Source of the DNA: Pseudomonas eucalypticola
GTDB lineage: Bacteria; Pseudomonadota; Gammaproteobacteria; Pseudomonadales; Pseudomonadaceae
Length of the DNA stretch: 64,000 nt
Assembly: GCF_013374995.1 (NCBI RefSeq)
Contig: NZ_CP056030.1
Location: 6,046,501 to 6,110,500 of the forward strand
Reading direction: 5' to 3'
Shown here: positions 29,234-47,226 of the stretch, piece by piece
Numbering within the stretch: the stretch's first letter is position 1
How the letters are laid out: each line of letters opens with the position of its first letter
Position numbers and translations under genes: made by a program
The notes under the pieces: model-generated
The model's input: only the letters and a program-made list of their open reading frames with translations
Database searches by the model: none
What the model was told of the DNA's origin: nothing

Positions 29234-31471
29234 TTACTTGCGTAACAGCCTCAAACCGTTGAAAACCACCAGCAGACTGACGCCCATATCGGCGAACACC
29301 GCCATCCACATCGTCGCCAGGCCCGCGAAGGTCATGGCCAGGAACACGGCCTTGATCACCAGGGCGAGCACGATGTTCTGCATCAGTATCGCGCGGGTCT
29401 GGCGCGAGAGCCTGACGAAGGCCGGTATTTTTCGCAAGTCGTCGTCCATCAGCGCCACGTCGGCGGTCTCGATCGCCGTGTCGCTCCCCGCCGCGGCCAT
29501 GGCGAAGCCCAATTCGGCACGGGCCAGCGCCGGAGCATCGTTGATCCCGTCGCCCACCATGCCCACCCGGTGGCCCTGGGCATACAGCGCTTCGATGACC
29601 TGCAACTTGTCGGCAGGCAACAGATTGCCACGGGCCTCGTCGATGCCCACCTGCGCAGCGATGGCCTGGGCCGTGTGCGGGTTGTCGCCGGTCAGCATCA
29701 CGGTCTTGATGCCCAGCGCATGCAACTGGGCGATGGCTTCGCGGCTGGTGTCGCGCAAGGTGTCGGCCACGGCGAAGAAGGCCAGCGGGCCGCTGGCGTC
29801 AAGCAACACCACCACGCTCTTGCCCTGGCGCTCAAGGGTGTCGAGCTGCGCTTCCAGCTTCGGCGAGCACAGGCCCAGCTCTTCCACCAGGCGATGGTTG
29901 CCCAGGTGGTAGACCTGGCCTTCGATGCAGCCGCGCACACCGCGGCCGGCCAGGGCCTGCAAGTCCAGCACGTCCAGCAGCGCCTCGCCTGCCTCCAGCG
30001 CCGGCCGGGCAATGGCCTGGGACACCGGGTGGTCGGAACGCGCGGCCAGGCTGGCGGCGATCTGCTCGGCACGCGTGACGAAGGCTGGGTCCAGGGGCAC
30101 GAAATCAGTCTGCACCGGCTTGCCGTGGGTCAGGGTGCCGGTCTTGTCCAGCGCCAGGTAATCCAGGCGGTGGCCGCCCTCCAGGTGCACGCCGCCCTTG
30201 ACCAGGATGCCTTTGCGCGCCGCCGAGGCCAGGCCGCTGACGATGGTCACCGGGGTCGAGATCACCAGCGCACAGGGGCACGCGACCACCAGCAGCACCA
30301 GCGCCCGGTAAACCCAGTCGAACCAACCGCCGCCCATGAACAAGGGCGGCAGCAGCGCCACGGCCAGCGCCAGGGCGAACACCGCCGGGGTGTAGTAGCG
30401 AGAAAAGCTGTCCACGAAGCGCTGGGTCGGTGCCCGGGCACCCTGGGCCTGTTCCACGGCGTGGATGATGCGCGCGAGGGTCGAATCGCTGGCGAGCGCA
30501 GTCACCCGGTATTCCAGGGCGCCCGCCTGGTTGATGGTACCGGCGAATACCTTGTCGCCTACGGCTTTCTCCACCGGCAGGCTTTCGCCGGTGATGGCTG
30601 CCTGATCGACGCTGGATTGCCCCGCCACCACTTCCCCATCCAGAGCGATACGCTCGCCGGGCCGCACCCGCACCACGGCGTGCAGCGCGATGTCCTTGGC
30701 GGGCAGTTCGGCCCATTGGCCGTCTACCTGCCGCACCGTGGCGCGCTCGGGGGTCAATTGCAGCAAGCTGCCGATGGCGTTGCGCGCGCGGCTCAGGGAG
30801 CGGGCTTCGATCAGTTCGGCCACCGTGAACAGGAACATGACCATGGCCGCCTCCGGCCACTGGCCGATCAACAAGGCGCCCGTCACGGCGATGCTCATCA
30901 GCGCATTGATGTTCAGGTTGCGGTTCTTCAGGGCAATCCAACCCTTCTTGTAGGTACCCAGGCCACCGCTGACGATGGCCAGCAATGCCAGGCCGGCAAT
31001 GCCCCACTGCGGCACCAGGCCGCTGAAATGGGCAGCCTCGGCCGCCACCGCTGCCACGCTGGAAAGCGCCAGCGGCCACCAGGGCTTGTGCACGGTTACG
31101 CTGGCAGCACCGGGCCCCGCGCCGTCCAGCGGCTCGGCCTGCATGCCCAGCTCTGCGATAGCCGCGACGATCGCCTGGTCGTCGACCAAGGCATGGCGCA
31201 CGCCCAACACCCGGTTGATCAGGTTGAACTCCAGTTCCTCGACCCCGGCCAATTTGCCCAGGCGGTTCTGGATCAATGTCTGCTCGGTGGGGCAGTCCAT
31301 CTGCTCGATACGAAAACGGCTGAGCCGCGCGTCGATACTGGCCTTGCCGCCCAGCCGTACGGTGGCCGGCGCCGCACCGGCGCAGCAGCTGCCGTGGGCA
31401 GGGCTGCGTACCGAAGCATGGTCGTGGTGATGATCGTGGTCGTGCTTGTGGTCGTGCGTGGGCTGGCTCAT
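29234..31471 (-). CDS. cadA: Cadmium/zinc/lead-exporting P1B-type ATPase CadA
   Basis: 745 aa metal-exporting P-type ATPase. The N-terminus is His-rich ([18 protein letters not shown]), followed by one heavy-metal-associated domain with the altered motif EQMDCPTEQ. The core has the CPCALVIS metal-site segment, the phosphorylation motif [10 protein letters not shown], and [19 protein letters not shown]. The CPC plus the C-terminal membrane Lys/Asp features fit the Zn/Cd/Pb group. It is divergent from cadR and shares its operator region. Confidence 0.9.
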
Positions 31472-31508
31472 TGGTCAGGTCCGTAGAAGTGCCTGTTGCC
31501 AAGTGAAC

Positions 31509-31529
31509 ACCCTGTAGCCACTATAGGGT
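31509..31529. promoter_or_regulatory. CadR operator within the cadA promoter
   Basis: The inverted repeat ACCCTGTAG-CCA-CTATAGGGT is the CadR site type known from P. putida, where the cadA strand reads ACCCTATAGTGGCTACAGGGT-like. On the minus strand TTGACC (31532-31527) partly overlaps it and is the likely cadA -35, followed by the long spacer typical of MerR-family promoters. Confidence 0.85.
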
Positions 31530-31552
31530 CAAGCACCTTTGGAGGGCGCAGC

Positions 31553-32002
31553 ATGAAAATCGGCGAATTGGCCAAGGCCACCGACTGCCAGGTCGAGACC
31601 ATCCGCTACTACGAGCGCGAGCAACTATTGCCGCCCCCGGCTCGAACCGATGGCAACTATCGGCTGTATACCCAAGCCCATGCAGAGCGCCTGACCTTCA
31701 TCCGCAACTGCCGTACCCTGGACATGACCCTCGACGAAATCCGCAGCCTGCTGACCCTGCGCGACAGCCCCCAGGCCCAGTGCGAAAGCGTCAATGCCCT
31801 GGTTGACGAGCATATCCACCATGTGCGCGCACGTATCGAGGGCCTGCAGGCGCTGCAGTCACAGCTGCTGGAGTTGCGCCAGCGTTGTGGCACGGCGGGC
31901 AGCAGCGACCAGTGCGGCATCCTGCAGCGCCTGGAAGTCAACGGCGCGGTCACGGCCCCGGAGGCCGAGCACTCCCACGTGGGCCGCAGCCACGGTCACT
32001 GA
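31553..32002 (+). CDS. cadR: MerR-family cadmium-responsive regulator CadR
   Basis: 149 aa with start ATG 31553 behind GGAGG. The MerR winged helix is clear (MKIGELAKATDCQVETIRYYEREQLLPPPARTDGNYRLY). Metal-binding Cys are CRTLDM, CESVNALVDEH and the C-terminal CGTAGSSDQCGIL, and the tail is His-rich (EHSHVGRSHGH). It activates cadA on Cd binding by DNA distortion. Its last 7 bp overlap the first flagellar gene on the other strand. Confidence 0.92.
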   Translation: MKIGELAKATDCQVETIRYYEREQLLPPPARTDGNYRLYTQAHAERLTFIRNCRTLDMTLDEIRSLLTLRDSPQAQCESVNALVDEHIHHVRARIEGLQALQSQLLELRQRCGTAGSSDQCGILQRLEVNGAVTAPEAEHSHVGRSHGH

Positions 32003-33695: not shown

Positions 33696-33722
33696 TAAAG
33701 CTGACCAGGGTGTTGCCGATCT
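33696..33722 (+). promoter_or_regulatory. Sigma-28 (FliA) promoter of flagellin
   Basis: TAAA (33696-33699), 15 nt, then GCCGATCT (33715-33722). This fits the FliA consensus TAAA-N15-GCCGATAA with two mismatches at the 3' end. The -10 lies 67 nt upstream of the fliC ATG. Confidence 0.88.
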
Positions 33723-33789: not shown

Positions 33790-34878
33790 ATGTCCGTCAT
33801 TAATACCAACATCACGTCCATGATCGCTCAGAAGAACCTGAGCTCGTCGGAAAGCTCCCTGAGCACCTCCATCGAGCGTCTGTCTTCGGGCCTGAAAATC
33901 AACAGCGCGTCCGACGACGCCGCCGGCGAAGCCATCGCCAACCGCATGAGCTCGCAGATCACCGGCCTGGACCAGGCCAGCAGCAACGCCAGCGACGGTA
34001 TCTCCCTGGCGCAGACCACTGAAGGCGCGCTGGACGAAGTGAACGACAACTTGCAGCGTATCCGTGAGCTGTCGGTACAGGCCGCCAACGGCACCAACTC
34101 CCAGTCCGACCTGCAGTCCATCCAGGATGAAATCACCCAGCGCCTGGATGAAATCGACCGTATCTCCTCGCAAACCGCGTTCAACGGCGTCAGCGTTCTG
34201 GACTCTGACCAGACCATCACCATCCAGGTAGGCGCCAACGATGGCGAGACCATCGACATCAAGCTGAGCGAAATCAACAGCTCGACCCTGGGCCTGAGCG
34301 GCTTCAACGTCAACGGCTACGACGGTTCGGTGAGCGCGGCTTCGGTGGAAGACGAAGGCGGTGCATCCATGACTCTGTCCAGCACCAACGTCACCATCAC
34401 CGACAAGTCGGGCAGCTCCATCAGCTACGGCAGCGGCAGCACTGGCGGCACCCTGGTGCAGGACGAAGATGGCGATTACTTCCTGCAGGTGGGCAGCGGT
34501 TCTACCGCCACCTACTACGCCGCCGACGTGACCGTGACCGGCAGCGGCTCCACCGCCACCGTATCGGTAAGCGTGGACACCGAAAACGAAGTGACCCAGA
34601 AGTCCACCAACACCCTGACCACCCTGGACTCGGCCCTGAATACCGTGGACTCCATGCGTTCGGACCTCGGTGCGGTGCAGAACCGGTTCGATTCGGCCAT
34701 TTCCAACATTTCCACCACCGAAACCAACCTGACCTCGGCGCGCTCGGGTATCGAAGACGTGGACTACGCCACTGAAGTATCGGCCATGACCAGCGCCCAG
34801 ATCCTGCAACAGGCAGGTACCTCGGTACTGGCGCAAGCCAACTCCACCCCACAGCAGATGCTGTCGCTGCTGCAGTAA
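33790..34878 (+). CDS. fliC: Flagellin
   Basis: 362 aa filament subunit. Conserved N-terminal D0/D1 (SVINTNITSMIAQKNLSSSESSLSTSIERLSSGLKINSASDDAAG) and C-terminal D1/D0 (FDSAISNISTTETNLTSARSGIEDVDYATEVSAMTSAQILQQAGTSVLAQANSTPQQMLSLLQ) are complete. The central domain (about 155-275) is short, rich in Ser, Thr, Gly and acidic residues, with only 5 Lys in the whole protein. A sigma-28 promoter lies upstream and a strong hairpin downstream. The next three genes look like modification genes. Confidence 0.95.
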   Translation: MSVINTNITSMIAQKNLSSSESSLSTSIERLSSGLKINSASDDAAGEAIANRMSSQITGLDQASSNASDGISLAQTTEGALDEVNDNLQRIRELSVQAANGTNSQSDLQSIQDEITQRLDEIDRISSQTAFNGVSVLDSDQTITIQVGANDGETIDIKLSEINSSTLGLSGFNVNGYDGSVSAASVEDEGGASMTLSSTNVTITDKSGSSISYGSGSTGGTLVQDEDGDYFLQVGSGSTATYYAADVTVTGSGSTATVSVSVDTENEVTQKSTNTLTTLDSALNTVDSMRSDLGAVQNRFDSAISNISTTETNLTSARSGIEDVDYATEVSAMTSAQILQQAGTSVLAQANSTPQQMLSLLQ

Positions 34879-34988: not shown

Positions 34989-35867
34989 ATGACGGCGCAA
35001 CCCTTCAACTGGAATTTCCAAGGCCGGCTGGTCGCCCTCGACCAGGGTGCCGGCCTGGCCAGCCGCCCGGATTTCGCCGCCCTGATGGCCCTGGACGCCC
35101 TGAGCGTCATTATCTTCGACCCGGCCAGCCGCCTGCACGGGTCGCCCCTGGGCGAACACCCGCACGTGCAGATTTTCAACGGCATCACCCTGGGCGACGG
35201 CCGCCCGACGACCCTGCACGCCTGCCTGGACTCGCAGCTCAGCGGCACGCGCCCACCGCAACCGCTCGCCAGCCTGCCTGCGCCTTTGCAACGAGGGGCC
35301 CAGGTACTCGCGCGGCTGCCGATTCGCAGCACCAGGCTGGACGGTCTGCAAGGCCTCAAGAGCCTGGACTGGCTGGTGCTGGACGATCGTCACGACACCC
35401 TGGGCATCGTTCACCACGCCGGTGCGACCCTGGGCCAACTGCTGCTGGCCCAGGTCAGTGTGTCGATGCTTGCCCCCCAGGCCGAGCACTTCGAGTTCGG
35501 CCCGCTATGCCAGCGCCTGGCCGAACACGGCTTGCAGTTCTACCGCTTTCACGCCCCCAGCCACCTCAGCCAGTTCCCTGCCGAACTGGACCTGACCGCG
35601 CCACGGGCAACCCAGTTGCACAGTGTGCAGGCATTGTTCATTCCGACCCCCGAGCGCCTGGCGCAATTGCTACCGCAACGCCGCCTGAAACTGGCATTCG
35701 TCCTGGACACGGCCTACGGCCTGCACGACCTGGCCTACCGCCTGCTTGCAGGTGTCGACCAGGGCCAGGCTGCAGCCTACCTGCAAGCACGTCACTACCT
35801 GCCCGCCGCCAACCTCGCGGCCACCACCTTCACGCTTACCGCCGAGTACAGCCCAGCGCCGTGGTAA
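34989..35867 (+). CDS. Unrecognised protein between flagellin and the LicD-like gene
   Basis: 292 aa, no signal peptide and no membrane segment. Two stretches, LKSLDWLVLDDRHDTLGIVHHAGATL and FEFGPLCQRLAEHGLQFYRFHAP, recall proteins annotated as FkbM-like in Pseudomonas flagellar modification loci. However, no SAM-binding glycine motif is visible, so methyltransferase activity is not supported. The C-terminal part (LKLAFVLDTAYGLHDLAYRLLAG) looks helical. Its place between fliC and licD/tagD-like genes suggests a role in flagellin or surface modification; this is inference from context. Confidence 0.6.
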   Translation: MTAQPFNWNFQGRLVALDQGAGLASRPDFAALMALDALSVIIFDPASRLHGSPLGEHPHVQIFNGITLGDGRPTTLHACLDSQLSGTRPPQPLASLPAPLQRGAQVLARLPIRSTRLDGLQGLKSLDWLVLDDRHDTLGIVHHAGATLGQLLLAQVSVSMLAPQAEHFEFGPLCQRLAEHGLQFYRFHAPSHLSQFPAELDLTAPRATQLHSVQALFIPTPERLAQLLPQRRLKLAFVLDTAYGLHDLAYRLLAGVDQGQAAAYLQARHYLPAANLAATTFTLTAEYSPAPW

Positions 35868-35903
35868 GTGCGCGCTGGCTCAGCCTTCCAACCGGGGTCC
35901 ACC

Positions 35904-37088
35904 ATGTCTCGCACCGCCAGAAAAACCTGGAGCAACAAGAACGAGGACGCGGCCAACGCCTACATCAACAGCGGCCGCCAGCTGCTTAGGCAACAGCGTA
36001 CCGACGAAGCCATCGCCAGTTTTCGCCAGGCGCTGCCCTTGGCGCCGCGCAATGCCCGGCTGCACGCGGACCTGGGGCTGCTGCTGGCCAAACAGAAAAA
36101 AACCGCGGAGGCGCTGACACTGCTGGATCGCGCCCTGGAACTGGACCCCGACCAGGTTCAGGTACTGGTCAAGCTGGCCGAAATTCATAACCAACAGGAT
36201 GACAGCACCCGCGCCGACGCACTGGTGCAGCGCGCGCTGCAATTGGCGCCGCGCAGCACATCGGCGCACTTGGTGCTGGGGGTTGTTCGCCACCATCAGG
36301 TGCGCCTGCCAGAGGCCTTGGCCTGCTACCGCCAGGCGTTGACCCTGCGCCTGGAAAAACCCATCAGTGTCACCCCCAGGGCGCCTCGCGATGACTTCAA
36401 CAAACCGCAGGTTGAACAGCTGTTGTGGGATACCCTGGCCGCGCTCTGCCAGGCAGGCGTTCATGCCTTCGCCGCCTATGGCACGCTACTGGGCCTGACC
36501 CGCGAGGGCGGCCTGCTACCGTTCGACAAGGATATCGACTTCGGCCTGCCCCACTGTGAAATGGAGCGCGCGACCCATTGCCTGATTCGCCGCGGCTGGG
36601 TCGAACCAACCGGCGCGCACCGGCTTACCAACCCCAAGGCCTTCTACCACCCGGCGCACAAGATCTCCCTCGACCTGTCCGGCTTCGTGGTGGACCGCGA
36701 GGGCAATACTTGCACGGGGTTCTGGATCAAGGACGGCCTTCACGAATGGCACCGCCAGACCCGCTACCCAACCTTGCACCTGATCAAGGGACATACCCCC
36801 GACAACCGGCCGATATGGCAGCTGGAACAGGCCGACACTTGGCTGACCGCCGTGTACGGCGACTGGCGCACCCCGGACGCGTTCTTCGACACTGTGATCG
36901 CGGCAAAGAACCTGCAGGGTTTTTCGCTGCTGACCGAGTGCTACGCCGTCTCGCGGATTTATTCGCACATCGAGAGCGGACATCTGCACAAGGCCCGCGC
37001 CCTGGCCGACCACGCGCTGGCCCATCGCCCGGAGGATGAACTGCTGTTGGCCGCCCGGGCAGCCCTAGGCACGGTGCTGGCGCCATGA
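35904..37088 (+). CDS. TPR protein with LicD-type phosphotransferase domain
   Basis: 394 aa. Residues 14-150 hold about four tetratricopeptide repeats (ANAYINSGRQLLRQQRTDEAIASFRQALPLAPRN and similar). From about 170 a LicD/fukutin-type domain follows, with AYGTLLGLTREGGLLPFDKDIDFGL (191-215). The D-x-D motif DKDID at 208-212 fits the catalytic metal-binding site. LicD proteins transfer phosphocholine, or in relatives polyol phosphates, from a CDP-activated donor. The next gene makes such a donor, CDP-glycerol. The TPR part may bind the acceptor, for example flagellin. The 4-bp overlap with the downstream gene shows joint expression. Confidence 0.78.
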   Translation: MSRTARKTWSNKNEDAANAYINSGRQLLRQQRTDEAIASFRQALPLAPRNARLHADLGLLLAKQKKTAEALTLLDRALELDPDQVQVLVKLAEIHNQQDDSTRADALVQRALQLAPRSTSAHLVLGVVRHHQVRLPEALACYRQALTLRLEKPISVTPRAPRDDFNKPQVEQLLWDTLAALCQAGVHAFAAYGTLLGLTREGGLLPFDKDIDFGLPHCEMERATHCLIRRGWVEPTGAHRLTNPKAFYHPAHKISLDLSGFVVDREGNTCTGFWIKDGLHEWHRQTRYPTLHLIKGHTPDNRPIWQLEQADTWLTAVYGDWRTPDAFFDTVIAAKNLQGFSLLTECYAVSRIYSHIESGHLHKARALADHALAHRPEDELLLAARAALGTVLAP

Positions 37089-37489
37089 GCCGTATCGTTC
37101 TCACCTACGGAACCTTCGACCTGTTCCACGTGGGTCACCTCAACCTGCTGCGCAACTTGCGGGCACTGGGCGACCGGCTGATCGTCGGGGTATCCACCGA
37201 TGAGTTCAACCTGAAAAAGGGCAAGCAGACGGTGATTCCCTTCGCCGACCGCCTGGACATCGTGCAATCGCTCAAGTGTGTGGACATGACCCTGGCCGAA
37301 ACCGGCTGGGCGCAGAAGGCCGATGACATCCGCCGCCTGGGCGTCGCGGTGTTCGGCATGGGGGATGACTGGCGGGGCCACTTCGACACCCTCAGACCGC
37401 TGTGCGAAGTGGTGTACCTGCCGCGCACGCCGGGCATTTCCAGTTCAGCGCTCAAGCACTGCCTGGCACGGCCGGCGCCTGCGGCCTAA
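37085..37489 (+). CDS. TagD-like glycerol-3-phosphate cytidylyltransferase
   Basis: 134 aa, close in size to B. subtilis TagD (129 aa). It converts CTP and glycerol-3-phosphate to CDP-glycerol. Motifs match TagD along the whole length: TYGTFDLFHVGHLNLLRNLRALGDRLIVGVSTDEFNLKKGK, the nucleotide-binding HVGH, MGDDWRGHFD, and the RTPGISS block (ISTT-type motif). Such enzymes are typical of teichoic acid synthesis and unexpected in a flagellar cluster. It is coupled to the LicD gene by a 4-bp overlap and ends 4 bp inside fliA (convergent). Confidence 0.88.
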   Translation: MSRIVLTYGTFDLFHVGHLNLLRNLRALGDRLIVGVSTDEFNLKKGKQTVIPFADRLDIVQSLKCVDMTLAETGWAQKADDIRRLGVAVFGMGDDWRGHFDTLRPLCEVVYLPRTPGISSSALKHCLARPAPAA

Positions 37490-38181
37490 TCGGCCAGGGC
37501 GTCGCGCAGGCGCGAGACAGCCTGGCTGTGCAACTGGCACACCCGCGACTCACTGACCCCGATCACGGCGCCAATTTCCTTGAAGTTGAGCTTTTCCTGG
37601 TAATACAGCGCAAGGAGCAAGCGTTCCCGCTCGGGCAATGCATCAAGGGCCTTGACGAACCGCTCGCGGTTGCGCTCCTGCAGCAATTCGACAAAAGGCG
37701 AGGCCCCGTAGCCGCTGCTGACCCCGCTGGCATCATCCTCGGCGATTTCCTCGATGGGCATCAATTGGCAGCCGTTGATGTCCAGCAGCAATTGCCGATA
37801 CTGCTCCAGGGGCAAGTCCATGGCCTGGGCGATCTCCCGCTCTTCCGGCGGGCGGCCCAGTGCCTGTTCCAGGCGCCTTATCACGCCCTTCAGCGCGCGG
37901 GCGTTGCGGCGCACGCTGCGGGGGGCCCAGTCGCGGCTGCGCAGCTCGTCGATCATGGCCCCGCGGATGCGCTGCGAAGCGAAGGTGCCAAAGGTCGCAC
38001 CCTGGGCAGTGTCGTAACGCGCCAACGCATCGAGCAGGCCGATGCTGCCGGCCTGTATCAGGTCATCGAGATCGACATTGGCCGGCACCCTGGTTTTCAA
38101 CTCAAGCGCGTGTCGGCGTACCAGTGGCAGGTACTGTTCCAGCAACTCGCTTGATTTTAGTTTTCCCTGAGCTGTGTACAT
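37486..38181 (-). CDS. fliA: Flagellar sigma factor FliA (sigma-28)
   Basis: 231 aa with start ATG 38181 (MYTAQGKLKSSELLEQYLPLVRRHALELK). Sigma regions 2 (DLIQAGSIGLLDALARYDTAQGATFGTFASQRIRGAMIDELRSRDW), 3 (RSVRRNARALKGVIRRLEQALGRPP) and 4 (LPERERLLLALYYQEKLNFKEIGAVIGVSESRVCQLHSQAVSRLR) are complete. It reads like the enterobacterial FliA rather than the polar-system FliA of Pseudomonas. It transcribes fliC, motAB and fliD from the sigma-28 promoters seen here. An FlhDC-box-like repeat lies upstream. Confidence 0.93.
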   Translation of the reverse strand: MYTAQGKLKSSELLEQYLPLVRRHALELKTRVPANVDLDDLIQAGSIGLLDALARYDTAQGATFGTFASQRIRGAMIDELRSRDWAPRSVRRNARALKGVIRRLEQALGRPPEEREIAQAMDLPLEQYRQLLLDINGCQLMPIEEIAEDDASGVSSGYGASPFVELLQERNRERFVKALDALPERERLLLALYYQEKLNFKEIGAVIGVSESRVCQLHSQAVSRLRDALAD

Positions 38182-38290
38182 CCTGCAGGCCTGGTGTGAT
38201 GAGGAAACCGAGGGCATGCCCGCCACGCGGGTCACGGCGTGGAGGGCGGGTCATGGGCGCGGGCATTATTACTGCTTAGCCTGGGTGGGT

Positions 38291-46283: not shown

Positions 46284-46853
46284 TCAGGCGTTGGCCTGGC
46301 GCATGGGCGCCTCGTCTTCCAGCTCTTCGCTCTCGCGCCGCTTGAGGGTTTTGCCGGCACGCGACGGCGGCTGGCAGATACCGCATATATAGCGCTGGGC
46401 AGGGCCGTGGGAGTGGGCCACGAACTGACCGCTGCACGAGGAACACGCCACCAGTTCCAGCATGTCGCTCTCGAAGAAACGCACCAGCGTCCAGGCACGG
46501 GTCAAGCCCAGCACCACCTCGGACTCTTCGTCGCCCCCCACTTGCTCAAGGTACAGCCGGTACGCCTTGATGAAGGCCTCGATACGGTCGCAGCCGATCT
46601 TGGTCAGACGCAGGTAGATACCGTAGAACAGCGAGGAGTGGATATTGGGCAGCCAGGTCACGAACCAGTCGGTGGAAAATGGCAGCATGCCCTTGGGCGG
46701 CGATACCCCGCGTACCTCTTTGTACAGGCGGATCAACCGGCCCCGGCTGAGGTTGGTTTCCACCTCCAGTACCTGCAGCCGCGCCCCCAGCTCGATGAGC
46801 TCGATAGCCAGTTGCACCTGGAACATTTCCTCGACCAGGCTTTTCTCAGACAT
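46284..46853 (-). CDS. flhC: Flagellar master regulator subunit FlhC
   Basis: 189 aa, usual length. FlhC binds DNA in the FlhD4C2 complex and holds zinc through four Cys, seen as CSSCSGQF and CGICQPP. Conserved [32 protein letters not shown] is present. The tail is charged. The gene overlaps flhD by 8 bp. FlhC is not part of the usual FleQ-driven Pseudomonas flagellar regulon. Confidence 0.95.
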
Positions 46854-47226
46854 GCGCCTGCCCCACGCGTCCTCCCGTGTCGCCCCCGGCGTCCACCGAC
46901 GCCATCAGCAACGACGAGTGAATTTCCACCAGGCCCAGCTCCCGCGAATTGCCCAGCACCCGCGACAGGCACTCTGCTTCATCGAAAACCGGGCGGCACA
47001 CCAGTTGGTTGATGCGTGCCAACTGGGTCAGCTGCTTGCTGGTCAGCTTGACCAGCAGGTCCGCCATGCCTTCGGTCAACTTCAGGCGAAACATGGCGGT
47101 AGCGCGATCCTTGCGCAACAGGCGCTGTACCAGCAACAAATAAGAGAAATTCAGATCCTGAATATCTTCCAGACCTCGATCAGCGTTCAGCACTTCCCAC
47201 TCCCCTGTACTTTTCGCACTCTTCAA
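46846..47226 (-). CDS. flhD: Flagellar master regulator subunit FlhD
   Basis: 126 aa. Typical core [58 protein letters not shown]. With FlhC it activates class II flagellar promoters. Only 66 bp separate it from fliT on the same strand, and I see no convincing terminator or own promoter, so it may be partly transcribed from the fliD promoter. A weak CCGC-TAGG-GCGG stem occurs in the gap. Confidence 0.94.

Follow-up and report, generated by a model that had tools for sequence, protein, structure and literature searches.

A candidate flagellin-modification cassette with a TPR-LicD fusion in the second flagellar cluster of Pseudomonas eucalypticola

The flagellin groups of C. difficile Type A and of P. 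aeruginosa PAO1 are phosphodiester-linked, and a donor activated with cytidine diphosphate (CDP) was proposed for C. difficile (PMC10714395). In Caulobacter, FlmG binds flagellin through a tetratricopeptide repeat (TPR) part fused to its transferase (PMC7591256). The genes tagD and tagB have been noted in the flag-2 loci of Enterobacterales (PMC6993521), tagD is carried by one Geobacillus flagellin island (PMC5109656), and GT41 transferases with a methyltransferase domain occur in flagellin islands of Enterobacteriaceae (PMC4875605). These papers are drawn on here for the passages accessible to us, as is the description of the second flagellar island of P. fluorescens F113 (PMC5031763), whose main text holds no LicD, cytidyl-, tetratricopeptide or glycosyl- term. 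Here, we analyze a stretch of 64,000 nucleotides of the P. eucalypticola genome (the window), in which three genes lie between a flagellin gene and fliA, all on the flagellin strand. They encode, in this order, a protein referred to as gene1, a TPR-LicD fusion and a TagD-like cytidylyltransferase. We consider it probable that they form a flagellin-modification cassette of a second flagellum, using glycerol phosphate supplied as CDP-glycerol and handled by TPR-LicD and gene1.

The flagellin gene (33790..34878, + strand, 362 amino acids; Flagellin_N 1e-44, Flagellin_C 1e-28) encodes the proposed acceptor. It is followed by gene1 (34989..35867, +, 292 amino acids), by the TPR-LicD gene (35868..37088, +) and by the cytidylyltransferase gene (37085..37489, +, 134 amino acids), and fliA (37486-38235) lies on the opposite strand. 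Translation of TPR-LicD may start at GTG 35868, giving 406 residues, or at ATG 35904, giving 394 residues as in database entry P0001. The layout given in the first-pass annotation was borne out: an unknown gene is followed by a fusion of TPR and LicD whose DKDID motif is intact, and then by a TagD-like gene that overlaps the fusion gene by 4 bp (ATGA, 37085-37088). The same gene order is repeated in Pseudomonas sp. T1-3-2 (genome G072, L014/L031). Since relatives of TPR-LicD and gene1 are conserved and stand in the same order there, a chance origin of the cassette is excluded.

Judging from its fold and motifs, TPR-LicD is most likely a cytoplasmic, CDP-dependent phospho-polyol transferase. 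A TPR superhelix that would bind the acceptor (residues 11-155, 35934..36368, +) precedes a LicD/fukutin-type nucleotidyltransferase-fold domain (residues 159-394, 36378..37085, +). The N-terminal part is OGT-like and matches TPR families in Pfam down to 4e-19, and the LicD match (PF04991), the only one in the P. eucalypticola genome, reaches 25.3 bits against a cut-off of 22.6 while covering just 38 of 227 profile positions. The hG[GST] and DxD motifs and the third acidic residue of LicD are nevertheless present: G193, D208, D210 and D257 (36672..36674, +) are invariant in 50 homologues, D208 and D210 belonging to the predicted catalytic DKDID motif (36525..36539, +). In fold, the LicD part resembles human FKRP bound to cytidine monophosphate. 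A full-length search (57 relatives) returned mostly TPR noise, and an alignment of the LicD part was therefore used instead. In the plasmid collection, all 33 records matching TPR-LicD were partial (mostly TPR by position), none covering more than 80% of the query.

Genomes were searched with the LicD-part alignment. Strong members were found in 4 of 398 genomes of the genus; in the order there were 11 of 390 genomes at E 1e-10 (5 strong) and in the class 4 of 369 (2 strong), the P. eucalypticola genome being included in each count. Single families gave 13 of 48 (family of G625), 20 of 61 (family of G1096) and 17 of 275 (family of G433; 7 strong). Each strong locus was taken together with flanks of up to 10 kb, shorter where contigs end (L050, L054, L056, L070, L079 and L083 among others). 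Eight of the 54 fetched stretches (L031-L045, L050-L069, L070-L088) were left out of the count for a weak LicD profile match, E 1e-10 to 1e-16 (L039-L045 and L069), and the other 46 make up, with the window, 47 loci, a number inflated by near relatives (20 loci from genus g383 and 13 from g29). Genes were called by a simple script, which may miss some, and tblastn with the window proteins (E 1e-5) served to locate flagellin and other flagellar genes. What the analysis shows directly is how the genes are ordered, conserved and linked, which motifs they carry and which folds are predicted for their products.

Flagellin is present in 6 of the 47 loci and gene1 in the same six, always in the order flagellin-gene1-TPR-LicD on one strand. 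Besides the window, these are L031 (Pseudomonas sp. T1-3-2), L050 (G1237), L051 (G1429), L052 (G1414) and L054 (G1343), so that linkage to flagellin is conserved across two bacterial families. The four Chromohalobacter/Halomonadaceae-like genomes share the order at 34-44% identity in gene1 and 35-46% in TPR-LicD, and TPR-LicD of L050 is identical over its last 380 residues to Chromohalobacter beijerinckii P0011. No flagellin was found in the fetched stretches of the 41 loci without gene1. As all 17 genomes checked have flagellin genes, most of them unlinked, this is not due to a lack of flagellin. The idea that flagellin is the acceptor is supported for this branch, and homologues are not always in lipopolysaccharide (LPS) loci without flagellin, the pattern that the first-pass annotation had named as contrary to its proposal.

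Locus L054 stands beside fliD and motB (within 9 kb), and L050 about 20 kb from flgK/flgL and fli genes (L105). A stretch of about 60 kb surrounding L052 (L109, L110) held no other recognised flagellar gene, and one of like size surrounding L051 (L107, L108) held a second flagellin, about 20 kb off, but no recognised basal-body gene. Hitchhiking in a flagellar island was considered and, given these two loci, rejected as a sufficient explanation. In a tree of 135 rows, those of g383 form one clade, and the flagellin-linked rows fall into two starred groups below an unresolved base: the window, L031, L050 and L051 inside a set of 34 rows, and L052 and L054 with P0037. Given that base, and the long branches and odd composition of L052 and L054, one and two origins of the flagellin-linked branch are inseparable. 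The TPR parts are no more alike among flagellin-linked members than among others.

The marker of the flagellin-linked branch is gene1, with a predicted FkbM-methyltransferase-like fold. Its window sequence matches no Pfam family, and 2 of 13 alignment members match PF05050 (best E 1.2e-4). At E 1e-3, at least 13 such proteins stand in the protein database, that of the window among them. P0127, P0126, P0129 and P0130 have a longest contig of equal length to that of TPR-LicD proteins P0005, P0006, P0007 and P0026, respectively, and so appear to share contigs with them. The KxDxEGxE-type motif of FkbM enzymes is absent from the gene1 sequences.

The same domain recurs under another catalyst. Strong FlhC is found in six genomes of the genus, two of which have the cassette (G000, the window's own, and G072). 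In three others (G088, G018 and G160), all with Pseudomonas second-flagellum islands, a single TPR-GT41-gene1 protein of 1124, 1188 and 1104 amino acids, respectively, is encoded directly after flagellin (L098:9013-12384, L100:11075-14638 and L106:14052-17363), with the gene1 domain at residues 669-920, 699-959 and 650-899. The sixth locus, in G155, stops at a contig end. The 1104-residue protein of G160 is intact behind its flagellin in L106; between fliA and this gene, L099:930-11046 holds VgrG-type and VasX_N-type genes (type VI secretion system type) and three similar genes of 370-385 amino acids. In G1429, the second flagellin, about 20 kb from the L051 cassette, lacks its N-terminal end in the frame found (L107:7053-14490), and the 1339-residue protein encoded after it joins TPR and a methyltransferase domain to a gene1 domain at residues 317-586. 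These extra loci (L098, L100, L106 and L107) were reached via flagellar genes and are not independent tests of linkage. Its presence in both LicD and GT41 slots indicates that gene1 accompanies flagellin modification under different catalysts, where it may serve as a recognition or scaffold partner or as a capping methyltransferase.

The window cytidylyltransferase matches CTP_transf_like at 1e-19, and its closest solved relatives are the glycerol-3-phosphate cytidylyltransferases 2b7l (6e-38) and 1coz (1.5e-36). It misses the TIGR01518 equivalog cut-off (136.6 bits vs 165.4, E 4.7e-40). Aligned with 1coz, it keeps the TagD motifs HxGH (HVGH, 37127..37138, +), W..QK, GDDW.G.FD and RTxGIS[ST][ST] (RTPGISSS, 37424..37447, +; RTEGISTT in TagD), and by these features it would work like a glycerol-3-phosphate cytidylyltransferase despite that score. 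Because the TagD signatures are kept, we infer CDP-glycerol as the donor in this strain. Across the family, 33 of the 47 loci encode LicD and a GCT-like domain in a single protein, 8 have the two side by side and 6 lack a GCT-like domain. Such fusion argues well for the two working one after the other, and the suggestion that the cytidylyltransferase feeds the LicD-type transferase was supported.

The proposed CDP-glycerol donor fared unevenly: it stood for the window strain and not for several others. TagD signatures are kept in the window, L031 and L051, while L052 and L054 have a diverged subtype with YT for RT and no W..QK, and the fused GCT-like domains diverge from TagD even further. In L050 (411-1925), a 504-residue NTP_transferase-HAD fusion, possibly LicC-like, takes the slot of the TagD-like gene directly after TPR-LicD; the search of that genome for GCT gave one weak match, in a 503-residue frame that by its length may be HldE-like. 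A role of the fusion in making CDP-2-glycerol was considered and is not claimed, the literature having yielded nothing useful on it. As the subtype of the donor enzyme varies between cassettes, different species probably transfer different groups, and we suggest glycerol phosphate for the window and its nearest kin only. Further TagD-like genes occur away from flagellin, one in the window's genome beside a Stealth-family protein (G000:C1:4689533, L102) and one in G1414 (C19:22278, L104) in a locus that is polysaccharide-like by eye.

The flagellin link drawn in the first-pass annotation does not extend to the whole family. Among the 41 loci without flagellin, an exported neighbour was recognised in 24, of which 20 belong to genus g383 (L038, L070-L088): there, every one of the 20 loci has a gene for a small RTX-repeat protein adjoining that of a TPR-LicD-GCT fusion in divergent orientation, while the other neighbours change. 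In two other Pseudomonas genomes, G113 and G398 (L032:6722-10373, L033:5299-9886), an ESPR autotransporter lies directly upstream of TPR-LicD, with no adjacent GCT. G1381 (L053:9574-17991) encodes a 1100-residue TPR-sulfotransferase-TPR-LicD protein and a separate GCT, next to a 1679-residue Big_13/SWM-repeat protein on one side and type I secretion-like genes, assigned by eye, on the other. In G1392 the neighbour is a DUF4214 protein cut by the contig end. For 17 of the 41 loci (12 of genus g29; L036, L037, L055, L057 and L058) no exported neighbour was recognised, and no reading explains them; L036 and L058 have large unclassified neighbours matching no Pfam family. A function in LPS only, as a general rule, was rejected on the flagellin linkage (6/6) and the exported neighbours (24/41). 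By these neighbourhoods, the flagellin-modifying enzyme most likely forms one branch of a wider family whose members act on exported proteins encoded nearby. We also propose, tentatively and at a little short of even confidence, that TPR-LicD proteins make up a broad class of phospho-polyol transferases, so far undescribed, that act on proteins in the cytoplasm and are the bacterial equivalent of fukutin/FKRP. Every member would serve the exported protein next door (flagellin, small RTX proteins, ESPR autotransporters, DUF4214 proteins or type I secreted adhesins), with acceptor, donor enzyme and accessory domain as exchangeable modules.

The window flagellin is part of a second, FlhDC-type flagellar cluster, in which Pfam recognises FlhD and FlhC (both above cut-off), FlhA, FlhB, FliD, FliF, FlgK and a sigma-70-type fliA. 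Such clusters are rare in the genus, as FlhC was found in 7 of 298 sampled genomes, once weakly. The cluster spans 31996-63924 of the window, with FlhD/FlhC at 46284-47226 and MotA/OmpA-type motor genes, and in the window and L031 it is bordered by an E1-E2 ATPase and a MerR regulator (29234-32002, cadA/cadR-like by eye). Another flagellin locus of the same genome (C1:1579061) has flgK/flgL-, fliD- and fliS-like neighbours; a 582-residue protein in which Pfam recognises only TPR at E 0.01 (L103:6676-8421) adjoins that flagellin and is perhaps its modification enzyme.

A sigma-28-type promoter-like site, TAAA-N15-GCCGAT (33696..33720, +), lies upstream of the window flagellin gene. Three exact sites were seen in the window against 0.14 expected, and sites with 0-1 mismatch and a 15-bp spacer stand upstream of all cassette flagellins examined (window, L031, L050, L051, L052 and both of L054), compared with 22 of 1000 random 300-mers of the window. 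Window gene1 has no such site of its own, the best candidate having 3 mismatches, and transcription of the cassette by read-through from fliC is therefore likely; L050 gene1 has a site with 1 mismatch. The variable part of the window flagellin contains three GSGS motifs (residues 214, 235 and 251), as does L031 flagellin; the motif is absent from two aligned GT41-type flagellins and from those of L050, L051 and L052, and single in L054. Three copies arose in 1 of 10,000 shuffles of residues 171-280, for a motif picked after seeing the sequence. As modification-site candidates, these motifs are a lead only.

In the mechanism that we favor, the TagD-like enzyme would convert cytidine triphosphate and glycerol-3-phosphate to CDP-glycerol, and the TPR part of TPR-LicD would hold unfolded flagellin in the cytoplasm. 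The LicD/FKRP-like part would then move glycerol phosphate from CDP-glycerol to serine or threonine, or to a sugar already there, in the flagellin variable domain before export, and gene1 would act as recognition or scaffold partner or as a methyltransferase capping the group. The chemical steps, the binding of flagellin by TPR, the acceptor residues and the role of gene1 are what we infer in this scheme. Its weakest steps are which group is transferred, whether protein itself receives it and what gene1 does. If the group on flagellin were a different polyol or an amino compound supplied in CDP-activated form, or glycerol phosphate that gene1 had methylated, this would suit the FkbM-like fold of gene1 and donor enzymes that differ between cassettes (TagD type, diverged in L052 and L054, NTP_transferase and HAD in L050). 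The lack of a KxDxEGxE-type motif in gene1 speaks against methylation, and the TagD signatures and nearest solved relatives of the window enzyme against any other group, which makes this alternative unlikely in our view. It does have a parallel in C. difficile Type A, where a putative methyltransferase, a cytidylyltransferase and a TagF-like transferase are joined (passages of PMC10714395; compare N-methyl-phosphothreonine).

Alternatively, flagellin might first receive a glycan from a glycosyltransferase whose gene lies elsewhere, and TPR-LicD would extend this glycan, much as the passages of PMC10714395 propose for CD0244 and the N-acetylglucosamine of C. difficile FliC. TPR-GT41 proteins do occupy the same slot in sister islands. 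However, no glycosyltransferase is encoded by the three genes between fliC and fliA, and GT41 and LicD are alternatives, never together, in the islands examined (window and L014; L098, L099/L106 and L100), so that we find extension rather improbable. Classical LicD and TagD act on glycans, and this would agree with a surface glycan (LPS or capsule) as acceptor and with genes placed in the flagellar island by chance or shared regulation only, as would the 41 of 47 fetched stretches without flagellin, 17 of these 41 having no recognised exported neighbour. It is hard to reconcile with flagellin as upstream neighbour in 6 of 6 gene1 loci from two families, two of them with no basal-body gene recognised in about 60 kb, with the exported proteins adjoining 24 of the 41 other loci, or with an OGT-like TPR part, and we regard it as quite unlikely. 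Divergence of gene1 from the FkbM family, with no Pfam match for the window protein, could hint at a dead or decaying remnant, an explanation made very improbable by intact reading frames, catalytic residues invariant in 50 homologues and the same cassette in distant genomes.

If flagellin is indeed modified with glycerol phosphate, a fukutin-like enzyme that recognises its substrate by means of TPR would be attaching phosphodiester-linked polyols to flagellin, a non-sugar modification would be added to flagellin chemistry, and a simple three-gene system would be at hand for studying how a transferase chooses its protein. Such a change to the filament could also influence phage adsorption, the perception of flagellin by plants and the way in which pseudomonads with a second flagellum colonise roots. 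The relatives paired with an RTX protein or an autotransporter would allow acceptors to be sought more broadly, and those beside other secreted proteins suggest a little-known route of bacterial protein decoration.

The first-pass annotation knew of no described flagellin modification of this kind, a claim that proved too strong in view of C. difficile Type A and PAO1 (PMC10714395) and of tagD/tagB in flag-2 (PMC6993521). Polyol-phosphate chemistry on flagellin has precedent as an idea. As in C. difficile Type A (CD0240-0244) and PAO1 b-type (PA1088-1091), a phosphodiester-linked group on flagellin is proposed here; in C. difficile, too, the cluster lies downstream of fliC, and a cytidylyltransferase, a CDP-dependent phosphotransferase and a methyltransferase are proposed (passages of PMC10714395). 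Those systems use a TagF-like transferase, an NTP_transferase-like cytidylyltransferase, a glycosyltransferase and a ThrH-like enzyme, whereas the window cassette has a TPR-fused LicD and a TagD-type enzyme, and contains neither a glycosyltransferase nor a ThrH-like gene (only the stretch from fliC to fliA was searched for these). TPR-LicD shares with FlmG an N-terminal TPR part fused to a transferase, but the C-terminal part of FlmG is a GT-B-like glycosyltransferase of a pseudaminic acid pathway for cytoplasmic flagellin O-glycosylation (passages of PMC7591256), and that of the window protein is LicD/FKRP-like. Variable region 1 of flag-2, assigned to filament modification, likewise places tagD in flagellar loci (235 strains, ten genera), but with the teichoic-acid-type genes TagB and LtaS and no LicD in the passages of PMC6993521. 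Compared with the GT41-methyltransferase fusions, the methyltransferase-like domain is a separate gene in the window and the catalyst is LicD. FKRP and fukutin, CDP-ribitol-dependent ribitol-phosphate transferases of the animal Golgi that act on the dystroglycan glycan and to our knowledge carry no TPR part, share their catalytic fold and DxD motif with TPR-LicD. Our literature search, made by titles and abstract starts and with most subscription papers outside its reach, returned no flagellin-linked LicD or TPR-LicD system. As far as it shows, the TPR-LicD catalyst, its coupling to a cytidylyltransferase, an FkbM-like gene1 shared with GT41 systems and the wider family's pairing with other exported proteins are new.

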